Shown one piece after another: positions 2,902 to 16,979 of a DNA stretch of 20,427 nt. The notes beneath the pieces are model-generated. The model searched no databases. It was not told the origin of the DNA and saw only the letters and a list, made by a program, of their open reading frames with translations. The translations under genes were made by a program, and so were the position numbers. Source of the stretch: a virus. The stretch covers positions 1-20,427 of the IMG/VR virus record IMGVR_UViG_3300019360_000284; one strand, written 5' to 3'. How positions within the stretch are numbered: position 1 is the first letter of the stretch; every line of letters starts with the position of its first letter.

Positions 2902-3468
2902 TCAGTGCTGCGGCCTTCGCTTCAGGCCGAAGTCGCGCTTCTTGATCTTGGCCATGCGACCGTCGGGGTGATGCCACACGACGCCTTCGATGTCTTGCGT
3001 GGCCAGCCAATCACGCAGGGCATCGAAGGTCGTGGGTACGTCCGCCAGTGGGCCGGCCGGGCCGCCGCCGTGTTTGATCAGTAGGTGAAAGCGCGCGTGC
3101 TCGGGATCGCCCTGCACCTTCGGGCCGATGAGCTCATAGGTACCATCGGACCAATGATCCGCACCGGTCCACGCCTCGCGATGCCAGCGATCCTCCGGCC
3201 CTTCGCCGATCGGGAGCCAACCGACTGTCTTGCCAGTCTCGGGATCGACATCGGCCACCTCGAAGCCTGATGGCGCCGGTTCGTCACCTTTGAGCTCGCG
3301 TCGTTTGAAGAGCCGGTAGTCGCGCACCATGCACGCCGTGCCGTCGATCTTGCGCGTCGCGATACCTTCACCGGCGAAGACCCAACCGCAATCGGGATGC
3401 GCCTTGTCGAGTACGCGCGACCGATCGCCATTCCAGTCGCGCTCGAAGATCGTGGGGATTTTCTTCAT
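2902..3468 (-). CDS. RNA ligase family nucleotidyltransferase (RLIG1/DUF5565-like)
   Basis: This protein of 188 residues belongs by motif order to the covalent nucleotidyltransferases that adenylate a lysine and join RNA ends. Motif I is RKIDGTACMV with the likely adenylated Lys40. The YELIGP segment (Glu112) fits motif III, IEGVVWHH (Glu161) fits motif IV, and MAKIKKRDF (Lys174, Lys176) fits motif V. The opening KKIPTIFERD and the GWVFAGEGIATRK segment resemble the single-domain RNA ligase 1 group. The start is ATG 3468 with an AGGTG site about 6 bp upstream; a longer upstream frame merely overlaps other genes. It sits in the head and packaging operon between an unknown protein and the portal cluster. 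Substrate is unknown; repair of tRNA or other RNA cut by host defence is one plausible role. Confidence 0.75.
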   Translation of the reverse strand: MKKIPTIFERDWNGDRSRVLDKAHPDCGWVFAGEGIATRKIDGTACMVRDYRLFKRRELKGDEPAPSGFEVADVDPETGKTVGWLPIGEGPEDRWHREAWTGADHWSDGTYELIGPKVQGDPEHARFHLLIKHGGGPAGPLADVPTTFDALRDWLATQDIEGVVWHHPDGRMAKIKKRDFGLKRRPQH

Positions 3469-4243: not shown

Positions 4244-5833
4244 CTACCCGTCGATGATGATCGGCCGTTGATGCCGCGCGACATCGCGCAGCCGGCCCGG
4301 CACGCGGCCGACGTGCGCGGGCGTTGTCACGGTGGCGTAGCCGTTCTGCTGCAGCAGCTGGCGAACGGGATTGCTGTCGTCGCGCGCGCGGCCCAGCGCA
4401 CGCTCGTAACCGCCCTCCTCCATCGCGCCGTACTGGCAGGCCTCGGCGACGTGGCTGTAATCGTTCTTGTCGGGCTTCTCGTCGTAGCGCTCGACATTGG
4501 CGATGTTGAGCTTGCGCCAGCGATAGCCGCCGTTGAGCGCACCGCGCAGCACGGTGCAGGTCGGCGACAGCCAGAACATCGGCACCGTACCCTCGACCTT
4601 GAGGCAATCGTCGATCGCCTGGCGCCGCGGCTCGGGAGCGTTGGTCTTTGCCGGCAGGATGCGCACGCCGGCCTCGGCGCCGACACGCTCCATCCAGTCC
4701 CGCTCCCCTTCGACCTTGTCGCTGCCGTACTGGGCGGACGGATCGGCAACGGCACGGATGCGGCCAGGCGCGCGGAAAGCGATGTACTTGGCCGTGTCGA
4801 GCAGCGCACCAAGACGGCGGCCGAAGCGCTCCGGCCCCACGCCGTGCTCGCACACGACCTCGTCGAGCACGCGCAGCTGCGTGTCGGCGCGGCGTTGTTT
4901 CAGCACCGCCGCCGGCGAGCCGCCGGCGTCGATGCCGATGATCAGCACCAGGTTGTGGTCGGGCTGCAGTTCGTCGGGCGCCACGAAAAGCGCGTCGTCG
5001 AAATCATGCACCGGCATGCCGTCCAGGCGCCGACCGAACTTGTTGTCGACCTTGCGCTCGACCTCGTGCTTTTTCATGAAGCGCACCTGGCGCTCGTAGT
5101 AGCCCTTGGGCAGGTGCTGCAGGTTCTCGGCGCCGGGATCGCGCGCGCCGGCCTGGCGGAAGTAATGGCGGTTCTCGATCCAGCGGCGGCTGACGATCTC
5201 CCGGTGCTGCCATGTGTCGACGACGGGCGCATTCATGTCGGCCCACACGCCCGGATCGACGCTGCCGCCGTCGGCCTCGCGCGGGTAACGGCCGGCGCGC
5301 TGGAAGCACTTGCCGAAGGCAAGCTCGATGAAGGTCTGCAATTCGTTGATCCAGATCCACGTCGACTGAATGCCGGCGAAGAAGTCTTCCAGCGCCTCGT
5401 CGGACGTGATGTCGCCCAGCGCCATGAAATGCGTCTCGAGAAGGCCGGCCGTGCCGTCAGGCAGCGCCATCGTGGCGAGCTGCACGGCCGGGCCGCCGTG
5501 GCTGCCGACCCATTCGATGCCGTTTTGCGGATCGTGCTGGGGTATCCACTCCCACCATGAGGGGATGAAGTTTTCCCACAGGCGCCGATAGTCGTTCTTG
5601 AGGATGGTGAGGCGCGAGCGGCGCACGGCGTGCGCGCGTGGAACACGCGCGATTGCGCCCTTGACGATGGGCTGCGGATGCTGTCGCATGGTGCCCGCGA
5701 GCGCCTTCGCGATGAAGGTGCCGGTCTTGCCGGAACCCACCGGCCCCTGCAGGACGATCAGCTCTTCATGGGACTGGAAGGCGGCCAGCGCCTTCGGACC
5801 CGGCGGGGTCCATGGACGGATTACCGTCGCCAT
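4244..5833 (-). CDS. terL: Terminase large subunit
   Basis: This 529-aa protein is the ATP-driven motor and nuclease that loads DNA into the prohead. The ATPase domain has Walker A GPVGSGKT at residues 30-37 and a Walker B-like WIWINE at 159-164 ending in the catalytic Glu. The RNase H-like nuclease domain shows the expected acidic residues in IIGIDAGG (Asp302), AVADPSAQYG (Asp364) and NDYSHVAEACQYG (Asp458). Length is normal for the family. The start is ATG 5833 with GGGAGG about 6 bp upstream. It is separated from the small terminase gene by a 343-bp structured gap, which is unusual because these genes normally abut. A long plus-strand open frame opposite it is a shadow. Confidence 0.93.
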   Translation of the reverse strand: MATVIRPWTPPGPKALAAFQSHEELIVLQGPVGSGKTGTFIAKALAGTMRQHPQPIVKGAIARVPRAHAVRRSRLTILKNDYRRLWENFIPSWWEWIPQHDPQNGIEWVGSHGGPAVQLATMALPDGTAGLLETHFMALGDITSDEALEDFFAGIQSTWIWINELQTFIELAFGKCFQRAGRYPREADGGSVDPGVWADMNAPVVDTWQHREIVSRRWIENRHYFRQAGARDPGAENLQHLPKGYYERQVRFMKKHEVERKVDNKFGRRLDGMPVHDFDDALFVAPDELQPDHNLVLIIGIDAGGSPAAVLKQRRADTQLRVLDEVVCEHGVGPERFGRRLGALLDTAKYIAFRAPGRIRAVADPSAQYGSDKVEGERDWMERVGAEAGVRILPAKTNAPEPRRQAIDDCLKVEGTVPMFWLSPTCTVLRGALNGGYRWRKLNIANVERYDEKPDKNDYSHVAEACQYGAMEEGGYERALGRARDDSNPVRQLLQQNGYATVTTPAHVGRVPGRLRDVARHQRPIIIDG

Positions 5834-6176
5834 GGCCCGGCCTCCCTCGATACCCGTACCCGGCGAGGCAACATTGCCGGGGGTGCGAAGGCCCCCGCCC
5901 CGACCCGCTGGAGCGACCAGTCAATTGTTTCGCGCGAGGCTTCCAACAAGGCATTGGGGGACGAAAAAGTTGTACGGTTTGCGGTAGAAGCCTGTCCGAC
6001 CCCCGCGCGGGCAGAGCGAGCGCCAGGGGGGGCATGCCCCCCGGCAGGGTCCCATTGCCGCACTTCGCGGCGCCGGCCTGCGATCGCAAGCGCCAGGCGC
6101 AGGCCGGCGAGCGGCCCGAGCGCGATCAGGTGCGGCCGGCAAGCTGATGGATAATCAGCCGGGGAATGCAGGCAAG
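5834..6176. other. Structured gap between terminase genes
   Basis: I see no convincing gene here. The stretch holds a 12-bp perfect inverted repeat (6071-6082 with 6098-6109, 15-base loop), a 16-bp palindrome of six G, CATG and six C (6027-6042), a 6-bp stem at 6143-6159, and GC-rich stems near 5860-5895. A minus-strand frame (5821-6180) crosses the whole gap and starts with an ATGA overlap, but its composition follows the palindromes and looks non-coding. Candidate roles are a packaging recognition site (cos or pac, typically near small terminase genes), an RNA element or a remnant of an insertion. Confidence 0.4.
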
Positions 6177-6848
6177 TCATTGATCGCGCTCGCTTTCTGG
6201 CGCCGCGTTAGACTGCGCCGCGTTAGACTGGCCAGGTTCCGGCGCGCTAAGTGTTTGATTTTCAATGATTGTGCCCGCGACGTAGTCGAGGCGGCCAGGT
6301 GGCAGCGCCGCGAACCTCTCAAGCGCCCGCAGCGCGTCGGTATCCTCGACCTGCGCGTCACCCTGGCCATCACCCGGCCGCTGCATGAACACCCCGAAGG
6401 CAAGCGCGCCGCGGCCATCGACCTTGACCTCGGTCGGCATGGTGCTGTGTAGGTAGGGCGCGGCCACGCGCGCGGCCTCGATGATGCGCTTGAGCGCTTC
6501 CCGCGCGTCGCAGCCCAGGTAGGCCGCGAGCTCGCGCGGATCGCTGGCGTAGATCCTCGCCAGCGCCTGCAGCGGCGAGCCGTGCAGGCCGAGGATGAAG
6601 CGCCGCCAGGCCTCGGTGCTCTTGTTGCGCGCACCTGGCGGCCGGCCGACGCGGCGCTCGCCGTGCGCGACCTCGCCGCCGTCCTCGCCATCGTCCGGCG
6701 CCGCCACGATCGGGCCGGCCGCGTTCAACACCGGCAGCGCCGGCGCGAAACCAGCGCCGAGCATCAGCTGCACCGGCGCATCCGCCGGCGGCGCCTCAGT
6801 CGGCCGCTCCTCCTCGACGATCGCGGCTAAGCCATTGACCTTGCTCAA
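6177..6848 (-). CDS. Terminase small subunit-like DNA-binding protein
   Basis: The central part (RRVGRPPGARNKSTEAWRRF, then a helical stretch with DPRELAAYLGCDAREAL and PYLHSTMPTEV) resembles the G-R-P-x-G-x-x-N type proteins that sit before the large terminase gene and recognise phage DNA. It is flanked by an acidic linker before the motif and a disordered tail with a duplicated QSNAA. The start is uncertain. TTG 6848 gives a natural N-terminus (MSKVNGLAAIVEEE) with a GGGGCGG stretch in front. GTG 6902 and TTG 6926 are alternatives with poorer sites, and TTG 6926 would lie inside the repeat array. The gene is the first of the minus-strand packaging operon. Confidence 0.65.
   Translation of the reverse strand: MSKVNGLAAIVEEERPTEAPPADAPVQLMLGAGFAPALPVLNAAGPIVAAPDDGEDGGEVAHGERRVGRPPGARNKSTEAWRRFILGLHGSPLQALARIYASDPRELAAYLGCDAREALKRIIEAARVAAPYLHSTMPTEVKVDGRGALAFGVFMQRPGDGQGDAQVEDTDALRALERFAALPPGRLDYVAGTIIENQTLSAPEPGQSNAAQSNAAPESERDQ
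6201..6230. repeat. Perfect 15-bp tandem duplication
   Basis: Bases 6201-6215 and 6216-6230 are identical. They encode a doubled QSNAA in the tail of the small terminase-like protein, in frame. Confidence 0.9.
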
Positions 6849-6903
6849 TATCCGCCCCGTTTTTAATCGGTCGGAGCGGAGAGCGCCGGCCGATTGTTCC
6901 ACC

Positions 6904-7140
6904 TTGTTGCCAGACGCTGGCAACAAAACAGGACGGCCAAGCCCTTGATATGACTACGTATATATATCTTGTTGACGTTGTTGACGTTGTTGCCATGTAC
7001 CTACGGGCATACACAGGCGCGCACGCATGTAGAGACTGCTGGCAACACGTCAACAGCGGCAACAATCGTCCTAACCATCTGATTTATCAAGGTTTGTTTG
7101 TTGACGCGTTGTTGCCAAACCCCTGACCCATTGGCAACAC
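6904..7140. repeat. Array of eleven 9-bp repeats (YTGTTGMCR), origin or operator candidate
   Basis: Forward copies start at 6904, 6969, 6978, 6987, 7098 and 7109. Reverse copies occupy 6918-6926, 7040-7048, 7048-7056, 7057-7065 and 7132-7140. They form blocks: a convergent pair with 9-bp arms; three in tandem without gaps; three reversed and touching; then two forward and one reversed. A weaker reversed copy lies at 7385-7393. An AT-rich segment (6947-6970) sits between the first two blocks. The array fills the gap between divergent operons. Iterons plus an AT-rich stretch suggest a replication origin; a regulator-binding array is the main alternative. Confidence 0.75.
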
Positions 7141-7491
7141 GCCCGCTTCTCGCGGCACATCCAAAGCATGCCACAGCGCCGCGTCTTTTCCAACTGCAAT
7201 CAATGGGTACGGGTGTGGTGTGGTGGATAGCCACTAGGATCTTGCCCGCCCGCGGGTGCGGGTGATCGAATGCGGCGCACGCCTGCGGCGTGCACGTGGT
7301 GTCCGTCCTAACGCGCGCCCTCTGCGATCGCGCGCGGCGCGATCGCGGCGCGCTCAACTCCTTGATTTTCCAACAAAGATTGGGTGGCAACGCCGAGCAA
7401 TCAAATACCGCTTGCATCTGATCCGATTATCGGACATGCTCTTAGTCATCAACAGGGCGCCTCGCCGATGATCAGGGGCGGAGATAGACAG
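7141..7491. promoter_or_regulatory. Gene-free leader region of the plus-strand module
   Basis: No gene is supported here. Visible structures are a 7-bp stem at 7277-7293, a 10-bp GC-rich inverted repeat built around two GCGATCGC sites (7324-7333 with 7337-7346), and a perfect 13-bp palindrome TCCGATTATCGGA at 7422-7434. The palindrome lies just after TTGCAT (7412-7417), a possible -35 box, in a position where a repressor would block a promoter for the genes starting at 7492. The -10 box is not convincing. Confidence 0.35.
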
Positions 7492-7740
7492 ATGGCTTAC
7501 CGTGACACCCTGCCACAAGCTGAGCGCGAGTTGGTCCGGGCGCTCGAGACCGCGCATCGCGCCGCCTACAATGCCGTCGATGTCGGGGAGCCCGAAGACA
7601 CCAGCTGGTTCCAGGCCGGCACGCTGAGCGATCGTCAAGCTGCCGTCGTCGCGGCTGACCCGATCGTCAAGTTGCTAGCGGAAGCCCAGCGGATCTGGCG
7701 GGCACGCAATGCAGCCCATATCTATTACGACCATATCTGA
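7492..7740 (+). CDS. Hypothetical 82-aa phage protein
   Basis: The chosen start is ATG 7492, preceded by GGGGCGGAG at 8-10 bp; earlier starts (GTG 7384, ATG 7468) lack a site and would run into the upstream control region. The protein is mainly helical and acidic, begins MAYRDTLPQAERELVRALET and ends with RIWRARNAAHIYYDHI. I recognise no family. It is the first gene of a four-gene plus-strand cluster; its stop is one base before the next ATG. Confidence 0.55.
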   Translation: MAYRDTLPQAERELVRALETAHRAAYNAVDVGEPEDTSWFQAGTLSDRQAAVVAADPIVKLLAEAQRIWRARNAAHIYYDHI

Positions 7741-7741
7741 C

Positions 7742-8317
7742 ATGGCCAACCACCCCAACCGCAGCCGCAGCGCGCGGAACGCCGACGCCGGTTTTTTTGA
7801 GGATTGGTCGGAGTGGGCCACCTGGATTTTCCCAGAGCCGGCCCTCTCTCGATACATCGTCCACGTCGCAACCTCGACCGGCGTTGATATGGTGAGCAGG
7901 ATTCCCGGCACGACGGCGCAGCGCCGCGACAGGATGGACGTGTCAAATTTTGCATGGATCGTGCCCGCCGATGGCTGGCGCCACCTCCGCAAGGTTGCGC
8001 CGACTATTGCCGCAGCCGACAACAGCAAGGTCGCCCGACAGCAAGCGGCCTCGCGCCGCCTTGACGCCGCGAACCAGGAGCAATGGCAAAAACACAAGGC
8101 CGAGATGGCGACCGCCGACCCGTTGTTGCGTGAGTTGTGCGAGCGAATCAATGAGATTGCGGATGCCATGCTGCGCGACCGGATCCATGTCACGCCGTGG
8201 GAGCACGATTTTATGGCGCCGATCATCGACAAGCTGTGGCGGTATGGCCCGGCGCTCCGCGTGTCGGACAAGCAGCGCGCCGTCATTGATCGTATCTATT
8301 CTAAGGTTGGCAAATGA
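7742..8317 (+). CDS. Hypothetical 191-aa phage protein
   Basis: The start is ATG 7742, one base after the preceding stop, and the stop overlaps the next ATG (ATGA). The N-terminus is Arg/Asn-rich (MANHPNRSRSARNADAGFFE), followed by a middle with WATWIFPEP. The C-terminus has TPWEHDFM and then RVSDKQRAVIDRIYSKVGK. The combination of a T-P-W-E segment and a later S-x-K-Q-x-x-x-x-x-x-I-Y ending is familiar from small phage proteins in early or replication regions, but I cannot assign a function. A weaker N-terminal extension to 7709 overlaps the preceding gene and is unlikely. Confidence 0.6.
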   Translation: MANHPNRSRSARNADAGFFEDWSEWATWIFPEPALSRYIVHVATSTGVDMVSRIPGTTAQRRDRMDVSNFAWIVPADGWRHLRKVAPTIAAADNSKVARQQAASRRLDAANQEQWQKHKAEMATADPLLRELCERINEIADAMLRDRIHVTPWEHDFMAPIIDKLWRYGPALRVSDKQRAVIDRIYSKVGK

Positions 8318-8541
8318 CGCCCGCCGACCTCGACGCTGCCTGCCGTGCCCTGTTTGGCGACAGCTACAGCGCCGCACAGCTCGGCACCGCGGTCGGGATC
8401 AACGAGCGCAACGCCCGCTACTGGCTCACCGGTGAGCGAGCGCCGCGTGACCCCGACGCCGTGCGGGCAGCGCTGGTGGCGCTGCTAGTGGAGCGCGGCA
8501 GCCAGGTGCAGGCTACGCTGCGGCGGCTGAGGGGCGCGTGA
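8314..8541 (+). CDS. Small helix-turn-helix DNA-binding protein
   Basis: This 75-aa protein starts in an ATGA overlap with the preceding gene. A single helix-turn-helix is visible at about residues 20-44: SAAQLGTAVGINERNARYWL followed by TGERAPRD, the usual signature of Cro-like or transposase-like DNA recognition helices ending in a W-x-x-G turn. The remainder is a helix (VRAALVALLVERGSQVQATL) that could mediate dimerisation. It may regulate this cluster or the repeats upstream; the target is unknown. Confidence 0.65.
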   Translation: MTPADLDAACRALFGDSYSAAQLGTAVGINERNARYWLTGERAPRDPDAVRAALVALLVERGSQVQATLRRLRGA

Positions 8542-8813
8542 TGCGGGCCGCCGACACCGGCGCGCACAAAGGGGGTGTCATCACGCTCGATTGCGTCACC
8601 AGCCCGCGCCTGGTCGTCGAGTGCCGGCGATGCACCCGCAAGGGCGACTATCGCGTCAGCACGATGCGCCAGCGCTTCGGTGAGCGCGCGTCACTGGTCG
8701 ACATCTTGCGCGAGTTATCGGCCGACTGTCCGCGGGCGCAGAAGGTGCGCCGGAGGATCTACAGCGATATGTGCGAAGCGCGATGGGTCGACGTCGCGAA
8801 ATCGATAGGTTAA
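8541..8813 (+). CDS. Small Cys-motif protein, probably zinc-binding
   Basis: The start is ATG 8541 in a TGATG overlap (GTG 8538 also possible), with GAGGGG about 6 bp upstream; the product is 90 residues. It contains a CRRCTRKGDYRV knuckle, then an LSADCPRA segment and a later MCEARW. This matches a common small phage and proteobacterial pattern: C-x-x-C with G-x-Y after it, then D-C-P and a final C-x-A/G-R. The four cysteines could hold a zinc ion. The role is unknown; nucleic-acid or protein binding is likely. It is the last gene of the cluster and converges on the gene ending at 8869. Confidence 0.6.
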   Translation: MRAADTGAHKGGVITLDCVTSPRLVVECRRCTRKGDYRVSTMRQRFGERASLVDILRELSADCPRAQKVRRRIYSDMCEARWVDVAKSIG

Positions 8814-8821
8814 CCGTCGCC

Positions 8822-8835
8822 CGCCGGCGCCGGCG
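8822..8835. other. 14-bp GC palindrome between convergent operons
   Basis: CGCCGGCGCCGGCG is a perfect palindrome in the 55-bp gap between the stops of two convergent genes. No T-run follows on either strand, so intrinsic termination is doubtful. It may act as a weak bidirectional barrier or simply reflect G+C bias. Confidence 0.25.
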
Positions 8836-8868
8836 CCGACGACGATGATGGCGGAAAAGAAGGACTAG

Positions 8869-9135
8869 CTAACGGCCGCGTCTGGCGTAGTGATCGTCCA
8901 GCATGGCCAGCGCCTGGCGCAGCACGTCACGCAGATCGCGCTTGCCCCAGAACGTCACAGCTGAGCTGTCGTCGTCACCAGGCCGGTGCATGAACGGCCC
9001 TTGATGCTGCTGGCCGTTCACGGTCGCCGGCAGTTCGAGATAGAGGCGCAGACCCGTAAACGTTTGCCCGTCGATCTCCTTGCTGATGATCTCGACGCGC
9101 TCGGTCATTTCCTCGGCGTAAACGTTAACTCGCAT
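8869..9135 (-). CDS. Conserved-type 88-aa phage protein
   Basis: The start is ATG 9135 with a strong AAGGAGGAGG site, lying inside the last 31 bp of the helicase gene. The protein begins MRVNVYAEEMTERVEIISKE, continues with FTGLRLYLELP and HRPGDDDSSAVTFWGKRDL, and ends with a Leu-rich helix. The V-Y-A-E-E and F-W-G-K-R-D-L segments recur in small uncharacterised phage proteins in my recall. The strong site suggests independent high translation. It is the last gene of the minus-strand replication operon. Confidence 0.7.
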   Translation of the reverse strand: MRVNVYAEEMTERVEIISKEIDGQTFTGLRLYLELPATVNGQQHQGPFMHRPGDDDSSAVTFWGKRDLRDVLRQALAMLDDHYARRGR

Positions 9136-11138
9136 TTGTCTTCCTCCTCCTTGACCTCGCCCAGCAGCGCGCCGATCGGCACGCAGACACACCATTGCGG
9201 GCCGGCGTCGATGCGCTGCTTCGCGTCGAACGCGCCCGGCACACGCTTGGCCGCCTGGACCCAGACGCCGGCCTGCCAGCGCGTGCCGTGAAAGATGCGC
9301 TCCAGGCCGTTGGCCGACATCGCGATCGCCAGGTGCGGCGAGCGCTCGCGGCCCGCGACGCGCGGGCGCACCACGCGCAGGCCGATGCGGATCAGGCCAT
9401 CCTGCGCCTTGTCCGGCGTGATCTCGGCCGGCAGTAGCGTGCGCTCGTCGTGGTCGCGGCGCGCCTCGTCCAGCTCGAGCGGCCGCAGTTGGGCTGCGAT
9501 CGCGGCGAGCTGGCGCACGGTGTAGCGCTGGCCCTTGTCCCATGGCTCGATCAGGCTGGAGCCCAGCTTGCCCAGCATCTGATCGTGATCGCGGCCGGCC
9601 GCCTCCAGCAGCTTCTTGATGTCCGGCACAAGCGGTTGCGCTAGTTCTTCCACGTCATCCTCCGTTGCTACGGTGTCGAACAGCAGCGCGTGCTGCATGG
9701 CGAGCACGGTGCCGAACACGTCGGCCGACCGGTTGCCTATGTTGCTGCTGAGGTAGTCCCACCATGGCGCCATCAACTCATCCCAGCGCGACCAGGCGTC
9801 GATGATGCGCCGGCGGAACGCCTGGCCGATGACACCTACGCGCGCCGCATCCCAGCGGAAGCGGCCGGAACCGCCCTGCAGCGGCTGCAGTTCCATGAGC
9901 AGCAGCCGGCTGAGATCCTGCGGCGGCAACGGCAGGCGCAGGATCGAGGAAAACATGAAGCAGCTGGTGACGGTGAACTCGACCGCCTTGTGGTCGGCGC
10001 CGCCGCGCGTGATGGTGCCCTTGGACGCGGCGCGCCGCATCAATTCGACGATGGCCGTGCGCTTCCTGTTTTCGGCGTCGGCTTCGAGTTCATCGATGGC
10101 CACGGGCAGCGCGCGAAAGCCGAGCCGCTGCCAGATGCCGGCGCCCGAGGCATCATCGGACTGCACCACGCAGCGCTGCGCGCCGCCCATCGCGGTGTAG
10201 GTCACGCGCTGCAGCTCGCTCTTGCCGTTGCTGTAGTCGCCCGTGAACCACTCTGACGGCCGCCACTGCAGCGCGCCCGACACGATGGCGCAGCCGGTGA
10301 AGCCCAGGTGCAGGCGCGCGTCCAGTTCACCACGCGCCCACTGCCACCGGCGATATAGCTGCAGCAGCTCGCCGGCCGGCCCCGACCAGGTCCCGGCGGC
10401 CGGATCCCACGTCGAGGCGATCGCCTCGCTGCGCGACAGGGGTCGGGGCTGGCGTGCGCCCATGGGATAGACCAGCTCGCCGATCTGGCCTGGCGACTGC
10501 GACCGCTCGCGGCCCTCCTCCTCCCAGCTCACGATCGCGTCGCCCATGTGCCACATCAGGCGGCTGGCGTCGTCGCGCCAGGCGCCGACGCCGCGCACGC
10601 GCTGCATCGGCTCGAACGTGCCACCGGTCGACGCTTCGCCGCACGCCGCGACCAGCGCTCGCTTGAGGCGGTCGCGGTCGATGCCGTTGATGTCGCCGTG
10701 CTGATTGACGCGCGGAAAATGCTCATCGGCCCAGCGCTGCGCATGCTTGGCCTTGAACAGATCATCGACGCCATTTTGCCCCAGCTCGCCCGCTTCCTTG
10801 GGGACGAACTGGCCGAGCGCGTCGATGAAATAGTAGGTGCTGCCGTCAACGCCCAGGCATGTCACCGGGCAGTCCGCCGGCAGCGGCTTGAACGGCTTGC
10901 CGCCGCCCTTCTTCTTACGGCTGGGTGCGGGGTCATCGTCGGACGCATCATCGGCCGGCGGCGGCGGAGCCTTGCCGCCGTTGCCGGTAGCGGTCCGCGC
11001 CTCCTCCTCGCGCCGACGCCGCGCGTCTTCCAGCGACACGACAGCCGCCCGCTCCTGCTCGTTGTTGAAATACGACGCGAGGGCCGACGCGTTGTCAGGC
11101 GGCTCGTTAGGGTCTGGCGTCTTGGGAGCGTCGGCCAT
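9105..11138 (-). CDS. Phage P-loop ATPase, probable replicative helicase
   Basis: This 677-aa protein has a disordered, Pro/Asp-rich N-terminus (about residues 40-80), an intermediate domain, and an ATPase core. A Walker A motif, GDYSNGKS, is at residues 300-307, a Walker B motif, AIDE, at 347-350, and a sensor-like TSCFMFSSI at 391-399 is followed by DLSRLLLMEL, which could supply the arginine finger. This order fits helicases of the D5/SF3 or related phage type that work with a Toprim primase, and the primase is encoded just upstream. The start is ATG 11138 with AAGGAAG about 8 bp upstream. Exact superfamily is not certain from sight, and the C-terminal 250 residues are unassigned. Confidence 0.75.
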   Translation of the reverse strand: MADAPKTPDPNEPPDNASALASYFNNEQERAAVVSLEDARRRREEEARTATGNGGKAPPPPADDASDDDPAPSRKKKGGGKPFKPLPADCPVTCLGVDGSTYYFIDALGQFVPKEAGELGQNGVDDLFKAKHAQRWADEHFPRVNQHGDINGIDRDRLKRALVAACGEASTGGTFEPMQRVRGVGAWRDDASRLMWHMGDAIVSWEEEGRERSQSPGQIGELVYPMGARQPRPLSRSEAIASTWDPAAGTWSGPAGELLQLYRRWQWARGELDARLHLGFTGCAIVSGALQWRPSEWFTGDYSNGKSELQRVTYTAMGGAQRCVVQSDDASGAGIWQRLGFRALPVAIDELEADAENRKRTAIVELMRRAASKGTITRGGADHKAVEFTVTSCFMFSSILRLPLPPQDLSRLLLMELQPLQGGSGRFRWDAARVGVIGQAFRRRIIDAWSRWDELMAPWWDYLSSNIGNRSADVFGTVLAMQHALLFDTVATEDDVEELAQPLVPDIKKLLEAAGRDHDQMLGKLGSSLIEPWDKGQRYTVRQLAAIAAQLRPLELDEARRDHDERTLLPAEITPDKAQDGLIRIGLRVVRPRVAGRERSPHLAIAMSANGLERIFHGTRWQAGVWVQAAKRVPGAFDAKQRIDAGPQWCVCVPIGALLGEVKEEEDKCELTFTPRK

Positions 11139-11160: not shown

Positions 11161-12303
11161 CTACGTCGCGGCGCGCCGCAACATGTCGTTCCAGTCCTGG
11201 ATGCCTGGCGGCGGCCCGACGGGCAGGCATTCGCGGCCGGCAGTGCGGTGCGCCGCGACCGCGCGCTCGCGCCCGAGGCGGGCGGCCCCGTTGCCGTCGT
11301 CGCGATCGTGTGCCAGCACGACGCGCGCGAAGCACGCTGGCAATTCGACGTTGGCCAGCCCGGCGAGCGAGCCGGTGGCGCCGATGCGCCTAGCCGGCAT
11401 GACGGACGCGAGCGCAAAGCCGTTCTCGATGCCCTCGGTCAGCGTGATTTCGCTGTTCTCCGGCGCGCGCGACCACGGCACGCCGCGCTTGATCTCGCCG
11501 GTGCGTGGATCGACACGCTCACCAGCCCACAGGCGGATGCAGCAGCCTGTCGTGGGACCAAGCACGATCTTGCCCTTGATCGGCTTGCCGACGCGGTCCC
11601 TGCCCTCGTGTTCCTCGCGAACACGGTCCCAGCGATCGCCGTCGCGCTGCACCAGGTAGGTGCGGTGGATCGCGACCAGCTCGCCGGCCAGGTTCACATA
11701 GCAGGCCACCATCGCGGGCAGCTTACGACCCAGCTGCGGGTGGTCGAGCGCCGGCGCGAATTTCAGGCAGCCGGGCACGTGGTTCCAATGCGTCGACAGC
11801 TTGCGCAGTGAGATGCCGCGACCGGCGAGATACCCCTCGACTGGCGTGTCGAGGATCTGGTCCTGCAGCTCACGGAACCAGATGCGCCGCGCCAGCACAC
11901 GATTGGCCTTGGCCTGGCGCTCGGCATCGACTGCCGCTCGCTTGGCGGCCAGCGCGCGCCGGCGGATGTCTTCATCGCTCAACGTCGGCACGCGTCCGCC
12001 GAGCCAGTCGAGCGCAAAGGCATACGCATCCTTCATCGGCAGATGCTTGGCGTAGGCGATCAGGCCCAACGCGTCGCCGCCGATCTGACCACCGCCGTGG
12101 TGACACCAGATGCCGCGCTTGGCGCCCTTCGTGACTACGACCAGGCTGTCACCCGGCCCGCCGTCTCGCGTGCTGTCCGCCCACCATTCCCCGCGCCGCG
12201 CATTTTCGTGCGAACAGCCGATGAGGTCGGGCAACAAGCGCTCCAGCACGCCTGTCGCCGCCAGGGCGGCGTTGACATCGGCGATCGAGAAGCGCGGCCG
12301 CAT
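11161..12303 (-). CDS. Toprim-domain DNA primase
   Basis: This 380-aa primase would make RNA primers for phage DNA synthesis. The N-terminal region has Cys30, His32, Cys67 and His68 spaced like a degenerate zinc-binding module with WCHHGGGQIGGDALGLIAY. The middle resembles the domain that precedes Toprim in phage primases (YLAGRGIS, LPAMVACYVNLAGELVAIHR). The C-terminal Toprim fold is clear: LTEGIENGFAL with Glu290 and VVLAHDRDDGNG with Asp333 and Asp335, ending in GIQDWNDML. ATG 12303 overlaps the preceding stop in a TGATG junction; frames that extend further upstream are shadows of other genes. It is followed 22 bp later by the helicase gene. Confidence 0.85.
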   Translation of the reverse strand: MRPRFSIADVNAALAATGVLERLLPDLIGCSHENARRGEWWADSTRDGGPGDSLVVVTKGAKRGIWCHHGGGQIGGDALGLIAYAKHLPMKDAYAFALDWLGGRVPTLSDEDIRRRALAAKRAAVDAERQAKANRVLARRIWFRELQDQILDTPVEGYLAGRGISLRKLSTHWNHVPGCLKFAPALDHPQLGRKLPAMVACYVNLAGELVAIHRTYLVQRDGDRWDRVREEHEGRDRVGKPIKGKIVLGPTTGCCIRLWAGERVDPRTGEIKRGVPWSRAPENSEITLTEGIENGFALASVMPARRIGATGSLAGLANVELPACFARVVLAHDRDDGNGAARLGRERAVAAHRTAGRECLPVGPPPGIQDWNDMLRRAAT

Positions 12304-12467
12304 CACCAACATCCGTGCACACAAGCGACGCCAACGATCGCGAGGCAGGCACCGACCAGGCCGCCGGCGACGATCAGCGGCGTCATGGCGAGGGCGAACA
12401 GCCAGCCGATGGCGCCCATGATGATGACGCCGGCGAGCGCGCCGAGCGGAACAAGTGCGGCGATCAT
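12303..12467 (-). CDS. 54-aa small membrane protein
   Basis: The gene starts with ATG 12467 in an ATGA overlap with the TSCPD-like gene and stops in a TGATG overlap with the primase gene, so it is tightly tiled. The product is almost wholly hydrophobic: two probable membrane helices (about residues 3-22, LVPLGALAGVIIMGAIGWLF, and 25-48, ending near GACLAIVGVA) with a short loop. It lacks a signal peptide and catalytic motif. Its role in a replication operon is unknown; membrane anchoring of the replication complex or a superinfection function are possible but unproven. Confidence 0.6.
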   Translation of the reverse strand: MIAALVPLGALAGVIIMGAIGWLFALAMTPLIVAGGLVGACLAIVGVACVHGCW

Positions 12468-14156: not shown

Positions 14157-14306
14157 GTCGCATGGTGACAAAACCGCACCACATTTAGTGGCTGGCGTAA
14201 TTAGTCGTATAACGACAGAATAAAGTCAAGCCCACGTCGGAATCGGGCTTGGCGACAGCCGCAATTCTGCCGGGAAACGGGCGTGCTAGTTCTATCGTGT
14301 GGCGAC
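14157..14306. promoter_or_regulatory. Switch control region: cro promoter and three operator-like dyads
   Basis: Three 13-bp dyads occur: GTCGCATGGTGAC (14157-14169), GTCGTATAACGAC (14204-14216, perfect 5-bp arms) and ATCGTGTGGCGAC (14294-14306). On the minus strand the second lies between TTGACT (14229-14224) and ACTAAT (14205-14200), spacer 18 bp, making a likely cro promoter blocked by repressor. The third ends 12 bp before the repressor start and could give autoregulation. A 7-bp inverted repeat, CAAGCCC with GGGCTTG (14227-14251), is also present. Confidence 0.65.
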
Positions 14307-14723: not shown

Positions 14724-14865
14724 ACCGATCGTTGACGAATCGTTCCACCCTGCCGCGCCCTTCTTACGCGCTGCCGCAAGCGCTTAGCGCCGGCAGTTTG
14801 CGTGACAATTCAACAAGATTCACCCGCAAATGGATAGATCGCCGGGCGTTTATGCACAGCTGTGG

Positions 14866-14980: not shown

Positions 14981-15259
14981 ATGCCTCTGCCGAAATGCGA
15001 GAACTGCGATAACTGGCGCCGCCGGCACCGCGATGCCCGCGAGGGCACATGCCACCTGCGCCCGCCGGCCGTGATCGTGTCGCCCGCGTCTTCCGGCGCG
15101 ATGAGCGCCTGGCCGATCACCTATGCCGACGACGGCTGCCGCGTTGGCTTCCTGCACAAACTGCCGCCCGCGCTCGAGGACGTATCGGAAAGTCCCGTCG
15201 TCGCACTGGCGCGCCGGGCGGCGCGGGGCGAGCCGCTGCTGCGAGGCGACCATGGCTAA
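14981..15259 (+). CDS. Small Cys-motif phage protein
   Basis: This 92-aa protein begins MPLPKCENCDNWRRRH, with Cys6 and Cys9, and has further cysteines at TCHLRPP (about residue 24) and GCRVGF (about 53). That spacing fits small phage proteins with a treble-clef or zinc-knuckle that usually start with C-x-x-C-x-x-W. It is the first gene behind the repressor-controlled early promoter. Its stop overlaps the parB-like start by 8 bp (ATGGCTAA). Only a weak GGGA site precedes the ATG. Function unknown, probably nucleic-acid or protein binding. Confidence 0.6.
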   Translation: MPLPKCENCDNWRRRHRDAREGTCHLRPPAVIVSPASSGAMSAWPITYADDGCRVGFLHKLPPALEDVSESPVVALARRAARGEPLLRGDHG

Positions 15260-16979
15260 GGCGTCCCAGACGCTGGCCGCGCGCGTCAAGGCGCGGCGCA
15301 CCGAGCGGGGCCTGTCCATGGCCGACGTCGTTGCGGTGGCGGCCAAGGGCAAGCATCGGCTGGGCAAGGCCACGATCTCCTCGATCGAGGCCGGCAAGCT
15401 CAATCCCAGCCTCGACGTCCTGCGCGCCGTGGCGGCCGGGCTGGACTGCCAGGTGTCCGACCTGGTCGACGGCCAGACGCACGCCGTGCGCATGGTGGCC
15501 GCCGGTCATCTGCGGCCCTCGCCGTTCAACCCGCGCAGCATCAAGGCCAGCAGCGATGGCTTGGACGGGTCCATCCAGGACGTGGGCGTGCTGCTGCCCC
15601 TGATCGCACGCCCGCTGCCGGCCGAGGACGGCACGCATCCCGGCGGTGCGCAGTTCGAGATCATCGCCGGCGAGCGGCGCTGGCGCAGCGCCATGGCCGT
15701 CCATGGCCCGAAGCACTTGTTGCCGGTGCGGATCTGCGAAGCCGACGACCGGACCGCACTGCGCCTGGCGCTCACGGAGAACATCCAGCGGGCCGACATG
15801 CACCCGCTCGATGTGGCCGAAGCCTTCAAGCGGCTTGCCGACCACGGCGACAGCACCGATCAGATCGCCGGCGCCTTCGGCAAGGGCAAGCGCGTGGTGC
15901 AGGAATACATCAGCGTCGCGCGCCACTGCACCAACGGAGCCAAGAATGCGCTGACATCGGGTTTCATTTCGATCAGCCATGCCATCGCGCTCGCCGGCGA
16001 ACGCGATGAGAAGCGACAGAACGAACTGGTCACCCGCGTTGCTCGAGAACGGCTCAGCGAGGACGACGTCCGCGCGGCGATCGCCGGCACCAAGGCCGTG
16101 ACGCGCGCGGCGGCGCCGCCAGCGACGGCAACATCACAGGCCGACATCGAGGACGTTCCCGGCGTCAAGAAGTGGCCGAAGCCGAACAAGAGCGGCGTTT
16201 ACAGCGAGGAGGAGCCGCACCTGCGCACGTACACGTTCAGTCACGCGCGCGGCACCATCGAGCTGCGGTTGTTGCAGATCGCCGCCGACAAGTGGATCGA
16301 GGCGCGCAGCGCCGAACATCCCGGAAGCGGTCGGGGCGGTCCTCTCACGGCCGACGTCACCTACAGCACCCTGACCTTCGCGCTGCGGGTTTCCTGCACC
16401 GACGCCTGCATCGATCTCGCCAACGGCTACGCCGGCGGCGCGCAGAGCTGGAGCAAAGCAGCGCGCAACGGCTGGGCCGAAATGATGGCGCGCTTTGCCA
16501 TCTGGGCCGAAAGCATCTTGCGCGCTCAGGGCGGCCTCTCGGCGCCTGAGTTGAAGCATTTCCGCACGCTGCTGGACGATCGCATCAACAAGGCGATCGA
16601 CAAGGGCAACAAGGCAGTAGAGGCCAAAGTCAGGGCGGCCGATGACGACCTGGTCGTGATGCCGCGCGGCGCCAAGCCGCCCCAACGGGAACAGCCTCAC
16701 GACGATGAAGGACCGGACGTGCTCTTCGACGCTGGCACGCGCTTTGTCGTCATCCACGGCGGCGTCGCCCAAATCGTTGAGAGCTTCAACGCGCTGGCGA
16801 GCTACGTGCTCGATGCCGGCGGCAATGTCGGCAAGCGGACGCCGGGTGTCCGACCCGGGCTGCGTGACCCGCGTGATTGGCTCGCCGGACGCGATGGTCA
16901 TCCGTTCCACTGGCAAGACACGTCGGGTGCGGTTTTTCCCACGATCGAAGTCTACGAGTTGTGGGAGCCGGCGCGGTGA
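15252..16979 (+). CDS. XRE-ParB fusion protein
   Basis: This 575-aa protein begins with an XRE-like helix-turn-helix (about residues 8-72; KARRTERGLSMADVV, ISSIEAGKLNPSLDVLRAV). It is followed by a ParB N-terminal domain: AAGHLRPSPFNPR at 83-95, FEIIAGERRWRSA at 135-147 with the G-E-R-R motif that binds CTP in ParB proteins, and LTENIQRADMHPLDVAEAF at 174-192. A second helix-turn-helix, STDQIAGAFGKGKRVVQEYI, is at 201-220. The 330-residue C-terminal part is unassigned. ParB proteins bind centromere-like sites and act as CTP-driven DNA clamps. No parA gene is next to it, so a regulatory or maintenance role is possible. The start is ATG 15252 with GAGGCG upstream; the longer frame from 15123 is unlikely because it overlaps the previous gene. 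Confidence 0.8.
   Translation: MAKASQTLAARVKARRTERGLSMADVVAVAAKGKHRLGKATISSIEAGKLNPSLDVLRAVAAGLDCQVSDLVDGQTHAVRMVAAGHLRPSPFNPRSIKASSDGLDGSIQDVGVLLPLIARPLPAEDGTHPGGAQFEIIAGERRWRSAMAVHGPKHLLPVRICEADDRTALRLALTENIQRADMHPLDVAEAFKRLADHGDSTDQIAGAFGKGKRVVQEYISVARHCTNGAKNALTSGFISISHAIALAGERDEKRQNELVTRVARERLSEDDVRAAIAGTKAVTRAAAPPATATSQADIEDVPGVKKWPKPNKSGVYSEEEPHLRTYTFSHARGTIELRLLQIAADKWIEARSAEHPGSGRGGPLTADVTYSTLTFALRVSCTDACIDLANGYAGGAQSWSKAARNGWAEMMARFAIWAESILRAQGGLSAPELKHFRTLLDDRINKAIDKGNKAVEAKVRAADDDLVVMPRGAKPPQREQPHDDEGPDVLFDAGTRFVVIHGGVAQIVESFNALASYVLDAGGNVGKRTPGVRPGLRDPRDWLAGRDGHPFHWQDTSGAVFPTIEVYELWEPAR

Follow-up and report, generated by a model that had tools for sequence, protein, structure and literature searches.

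The window, by which we mean the entire 20,427-bp virus record (a linear contig with a GC content of ~0.67), carries a complete iteron array at 6895–7139 that is very probably the replication origin of the phage. Sequence comparisons point to the C-terminal domain of the helicase encoded at 9105–11138 on the minus strand as its predicted binder. More tentatively, and with slightly less than even confidence, we propose that such arrays represent a distinct and widespread class of phage origin. An origin of this class would have a near-fixed stoichiometry, with twelve heptamers divided between two half-origins in mirror image (each a block, an AT-rich segment and a second block) on either side of a Z-DNA-prone hub, and with each heptamer serving one subunit of a double hexamer like that of MCM. 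Its natural specificities, some nineteen in number, would be exchanged by swapping the array and the C-terminal domain of the helicase as a unit. The phage encodes an integrase, an XRE regulator and an XRE-ParB fusion, a gene content that suggests a temperate lifestyle.

Organization of the repeat array

The core heptamer TGTTG[AC]C occurs 11 times within 237 bp, as compared to 6 times in the remaining 20 kb of the window, and 300 dinucleotide shuffles of the window never yielded more than two copies per 237 bp. A previous sequence-only reading had described eleven copies of a 9-bp repeat in the order >< >>> <<< >><, and both their positions and their order were confirmed. The 9-bp consensus given there, YTGTTGMCR, is exact in nine copies, while those at 7040 and 7132 have a G at position 1. 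A degenerate twelfth copy, TGTTCCA, lies at 6895–6901, and the same variant is found within an inner triplet of the close relative L062.

The twelve heptamers (11 good and one degenerate) are arranged in four blocks, with the centre of the array near 7017. The outer block on the side of the small terminase gene, terS (6895–6925), consists of the degenerate copy on the plus strand, TGTTGCC at 6905–6911 on the same strand and TGTTGCC at 6919–6925 on the minus strand. An AT-rich segment at 6945–6970 lies between this block and the inner triplet of the plus strand (6970–6994; TGTTGAC at 6970, TGTTGAC at 6979 and TGTTGCC at 6988) and, given the AT enrichment found across arrays, is a candidate melting site. 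The 46-bp central hub (6995–7040) contains a 15-bp alternating purine-pyrimidine run at 7017–7031 (GCGCGCACGCATGTA), which had escaped the sequence-only reading and which ties in length with one other run of the window. Beyond it lie the inverted inner triplet on the minus strand (7041–7064; heptamers at 7041–7047, 7049–7055 and 7058–7064), a second inter-block segment on the helicase side (7065–7098) and the helicase-side outer block (7099–7139), with heptamers at 7099–7105 (+), 7110–7116 (+) and 7133–7139 (−). Both triplets had been described as gapless; the forward one is indeed contiguous, with steps of exactly 9 bp, while the reversed one begins with an 8-bp step, its first two copies sharing 1 bp. 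The AT-rich tract noticed earlier is thus real, and the one at 7065–7098 is additional to it; the AT content of the inter-block segments is 0.57–0.60, as compared to 0.32 for the window overall.

The array is intergenic, between divergent genes; 2 kb of DNA with several genes on the opposite strand separates it from the stop codon of the helicase. The terS gene abuts it, with its start ~50 bp away, as in most relatives. There was no Rfam match, and no DnaA box was found at the array, the sole TTWTNCACA match of the window being at 14850. The array does not fit a DnaA-dependent iteron plasmid origin, as the iterons have no adjoining DnaA boxes, or a lambdoid O-type origin, in which the iterons lie within the initiator gene, given the intergenic position of the array 2 kb off the helicase gene. 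GC skew, which had been proposed as a check, shows no inflection at the array and supports neither side.

The helicase and its neighbouring genes

The proposed initiator (9105–11138, minus strand) is a Cch/MCM-like AAA+ helicase of 677 aa with the Walker A motif TGDYSNGKS. It adjoins a TOPRIM primase gene (11161–12465, minus strand), which is present in nearly all homologous loci and encodes a probable partner. The order on the minus strand is TOPRIM primase and helicase, followed by small plus-strand genes, the array, terS (6177–6848, minus strand), the large terminase subunit gene (4244–5833, minus strand) and the head-tail connector. The TTG start of terS is predicted from its conservation in L062 and L048. 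In the late-gene cluster, we also observed a small RNA-ligase-like gene at 2902–3384 on the minus strand (Pfam RLIG1, 1e-9; phrog_14301, 3e-48).

The helicase matched no Pfam family at an E value of 0.05, and is therefore outside DUF927 (PF06048) at the Pfam level; profile comparison with DUF927 gave only a local match over Walker A-B. In PHROGs it falls into phrog_21086, listed there with unknown function, and also matches a distant DNA primase family. The AlphaFold2 model, built with 50 homologues, has a mean pLDDT of 86.9. Upon structural realignment, its best match is SCCmec Cch (Z 17.7, rmsd 6.7 over 431 residues, model residues 81–654), followed by the MCM helicases with Z of about 15, and its Foldseek matches include viral D5-type primase-helicases and the Rep proteins of SaPI5 and SaPIbov1. 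The C-terminal domain (residues about 515–660; 9159–9596, minus strand) is the proposed heptamer binder, on the grounds of the covariation described below and of the model. Modelled alone, it has a pLDDT of 85 and a predicted winged-helix-like fold with weak matches (best Z 4.8), the top ones being DNA-binding domains, several of them winged helices.

Distribution of the arrays

Viral contigs were scanned for three heptamers in tandem, which gave 23 loci, and about a dozen of these have dense intergenic arrays with inverted triplets. Some of the arrays are from phages with a relative of the window terminase, such as L037, and others lie beside DUF927 or VapE-type helicases. Since this pattern is biased to the window motif, the argument is carried by a motif-blind scan. 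A helicase search with an alignment of five homologues yielded 38 viral and 30 bacterial-genome loci, mostly from Alphaproteobacteria (Sphingomonas, Albimonas, Stappia, Brevundimonas, Rhodospirillales and others), and a search for clustered 6-mers was run on 71 helicase-homologue loci.

An array was found 3′ of the helicase gene in 66 of the 71. The cluster scores have a median of 15.7 and a minimum of 7.6, whereas shuffled versions of these loci never scored above 6.6. In L065, L076, L097 and L110 the top k-mer cluster is an unrelated tandem repeat, and the array was chosen from helicase-downstream candidates; the direct repeat in L065 and L110 (about 2270–2580) carries GGCTAC/GCCGTA in 22–24 copies and possibly lies within a gene, and that in L076 (1714–2064) has 24 copies of ACAGGT. 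No array was detected in L101, L105 and L114, whose contigs end within about 0.5 kb past the helicase. In L078, the region 11740–12000, which follows a helicase ORF of 1,303 aa, holds a few scattered CGTACC/GGTACG repeats and a CG-alternating run with no clear array; its origin may have decayed or be of a different kind. In L115, an array with a long alternation in its hub lies directly 5′ of the helicase gene (9427–9700).

Other queries were less productive. The large terminase subunit retrieved relatives in viruses, including L002, an array phage with a relative of the window terminase, and none among genome contigs. No relatives were retrieved with the flanking small gene at 7709–8317 or with terS alone as the query of a pattern search, and a DNA similarity search with 6000–9200 found no match among phage records. 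Six annotated phages with helicase homologues at 23–28% identity were also examined. The cultured Bdellovibrio phage phi1422 has a strong array next to its homologue, in which 11–12 TGTTACC sites form mirrored blocks immediately 3′ of the primase gene; the passages on repeats in its description do not mention the array (PMC3391216). Acinetobacter phage Acjo_20 has a strong array 5′ of its homologue, and Pararheinheimera KLER1-1 a weaker cluster 3′ of it. Three of the six (Bordetella PBb002, Bordetella PY223 and Pseudomonas Dolphis) show no array.

A shared plan with differing heptamers

The layout was compared among 45 nonredundant loci. The mode and median of the site count are both 12 (20 of the 45 arrays have exactly this number), with the reservation that automatic matrix refinement occasionally calls spurious sites (counts of 13–16) and may miss degenerate ones. 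Copies within the inner blocks are mostly 8–9 bp apart, the facing inner blocks are separated by a central gap of 51–91 bp, most often 53–57, and the outer blocks mostly lie a further 39–48 bp outward. The two inter-block segments have AT contents of 0.53 and 0.63 across the arrays, as compared to 0.36 for the loci (p about 1e-10 or below). The array centre is not AT-rich and instead contains an alternating purine-pyrimidine run, with a mean length of 18 as compared to the 6 expected. This run is unusual for its locus (p < 0.01) in 36 of the 45 loci, and exceeds every run sampled elsewhere in the locus in 32. Alternating purine-pyrimidine runs can form Z-DNA under negative supercoiling, and it is possible that the hub run is a Z-DNA element.

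The heptamer itself varies among families, with roughly 19 motif classes (TTAGACA in L072 and CGTTACC in L043, for example). Where the sequence-only reading had looked to conservation of the motif among related phages, the architecture is kept and the 7-mer is not. Divergence of the 7-mer within a constant architecture points to the binder.

The position of the array just before terS is nearly constant. In addition to its probable role at an origin, and compatible with it, helicase binding could also time terS and late transcription. Since there is no promoter evidence over the array and some arrays occur away from terS, we consider this second function rather unlikely.

Covariation of the heptamer with the helicase C-terminus

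A rival reading of the array is a packaging (pac/cos) site that the small terminase subunit would recognise. In its favour, most loci have the array immediately upstream of terS, at a median distance of 34 bp, and terS was detected in 63 of the 66 array loci. Motif similarity correlates with that of the helicase C-terminus when the ATPase core is controlled for (partial Mantel r 0.178, p 0.0005), and also when both the core and TerS are (partial r 0.217, p 0.0005), a statistically clear but modest effect within one family of related genes, obtained by simple Mantel permutation with the tree not modelled explicitly. Given the helicase, TerS adds no clear signal (partial r 0.061, p 0.10). The test omitted L042 and L054, whose array orientation was unassignable automatically, and L062 and L070, which have partial helicases.

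Individual pairs agree with this result. The window and L048 share the same motif despite TerS proteins that are only 27% identical, whereas L092 and L094 have different motifs despite 55% TerS identity. Furthermore, L085 (with another large-terminase family), L086 and L087 carry arrays with no TerS homologue detected nearby, and an array is present in the Pseudomonas satellite phiAH14b, in which its authors identified no terminase gene (PMC4936722). A packaging site is thus a highly improbable explanation of the array.

The satellite phiAH14b also provides the clearest exchange of a helicase C-terminus, with the qualification that its helicase is a DUF927 relative, outside the window helicase family. 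It is 85% identical to L035 over 3.5 kb, and its array is composed of GGGGAACA, whereas that of L035 at the same place is composed of GGCAACA. Identity is about 90% on either flank and drops in a valley at 9020–9715, which extends over the C-terminal end of the helicase, the array and the first part of the following gene. Taken together, these comparisons support a model in which heptamer specificity would be set by the helicase C-terminal domain.

The sequence-only reading had left a choice between an iteron origin and a cooperative regulator site; the former is well backed by the comparison, while the latter is disfavoured. As an operator, the array would be bound cooperatively by the HTH proteins encoded at 8314 or 13189, or by the XRE protein at 14283, and would control the divergent transcripts of terS and 7492–8813. 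It does sit between divergent genes, and regulators can bind tandem sites cooperatively. However, no relatives of the two HTH proteins, which had been put forward as binders, were found in the other array-bearing loci, and the single weak promoter-like match in 6800–7600 is outside the array. It would also be unusual for an operator to consist of twelve 7-mers, a hub and AT-rich segments and to accompany a helicase in different phages. This function is very unlikely. A parS-like partition site for the XRE-ParB protein (15123–16979), another binder suggested earlier, can be practically dismissed despite the presence of the ParB-domain protein in the window, as its gene is about 8 kb from the array and ParB relatives were found in only 42 of the 66 array loci even by a permissive iterated search. 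The XRE-ParB protein, encoded on the plus strand, has an N-terminal XRE-type HTH fused to ParB_N and ParB HTH domains.

Proposed mechanism of initiation

Returning to the origin as the preferred reading, we infer a scheme that covers binding of the helicase, the stoichiometry of the double hexamer, the sites of melting and replication itself; the hub may also play a part. The helicase C-terminal domain would bind the heptamers, with roughly one site per subunit, and the mirror-oriented blocks of about three would nucleate a pair of oppositely facing hexamers. Remodelling driven by ATP would then melt the AT-rich segments that separate the outer from the inner blocks. Each ring would thereby remain loaded on the DNA, ready for bidirectional unwinding, and the adjoining TOPRIM primase would supply the primers.

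How pairs of oppositely facing ring helicases arise at origins is a central question, usually studied in many-component eukaryotic or viral systems. The array is a candidate one-protein system, whose stoichiometry is suggested by the DNA itself, with its 12 sites split into two mirrored sets. Initiators and origins have diverged in many natural pairs, which could be used as orthogonal replicons. The comparison also provides a likely function for a family of phage helicases whose annotation is either unknown or simply primase, and marks likely origins in dozens of genomes.

Comparison with known replication origins

The window has several features of the origins of self-loading helicases: repeats beside an initiator-helicase gene, a predicted Cch/Rep/MCM fold and an AT-rich region between the iterons. 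The closest known systems are the SaPI/PICI origins, which are served by Rep or Pri-Rep. SaPI Rep uses its C-terminal domain to recognise iterons downstream of the rep gene and apparently binds them as two hexamers, and the isolated C-terminal domain of Cch2 binds iterons 3′ of its gene, at a site with three iterons (PMC7581432). A PICI pri-rep-ori segment sustains plasmid replication (PMC6092414).

The present arrays resemble these origins in their short iterons by the gene of a self-loading helicase and in the iteron sets around an AT-rich segment; specificity residing in the helicase C-terminal domain and two-hexamer binding are likenesses that are only predicted for our arrays. Since iteron sets flank an AT-rich segment in each half, each half resembles a PICI-type origin, mirrored. 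By analogy, the array would work like the SaPI/PICI iteron origins. Unlike them, it usually has about 12 sites, two mirrored block-AT-block halves and an alternating purine-pyrimidine hub, and it occurs in complete phages, where it adjoins terS and the helicase gene can be as much as 4.9 kb away. The published claim that the organisation of PICI origins is unique to PICIs is thereby qualified. The 12-site mirrored plan with a hub in complete phages has no prior description in the literature searched, which lies outside most subscription journals.

The alpha protein of phage P4 is a primase-helicase that binds short repeats through its C-terminal part; the P4 iterons differ in repeats and layout from the present array.

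SCCmec Cch, a DUF927 protein, is the top structural match of the window helicase, and the 3′ position of the iterons is shared with Cch2. The DUF927 helicase-array units of phiAH14b, its relatives and other phages belong to another helicase family, and likewise have inverted arrays with 9-bp steps beside the helicase, in which the motif and the helicase C-terminus diverge together. The array is not mentioned in the passages of the phiAH14b paper that were searched (PMC4936722). Units of a DUF927 helicase and an array were also observed in seven further Pseudomonas satellite-like elements (L018, L023, L030, L031, L033, L035 and L039).
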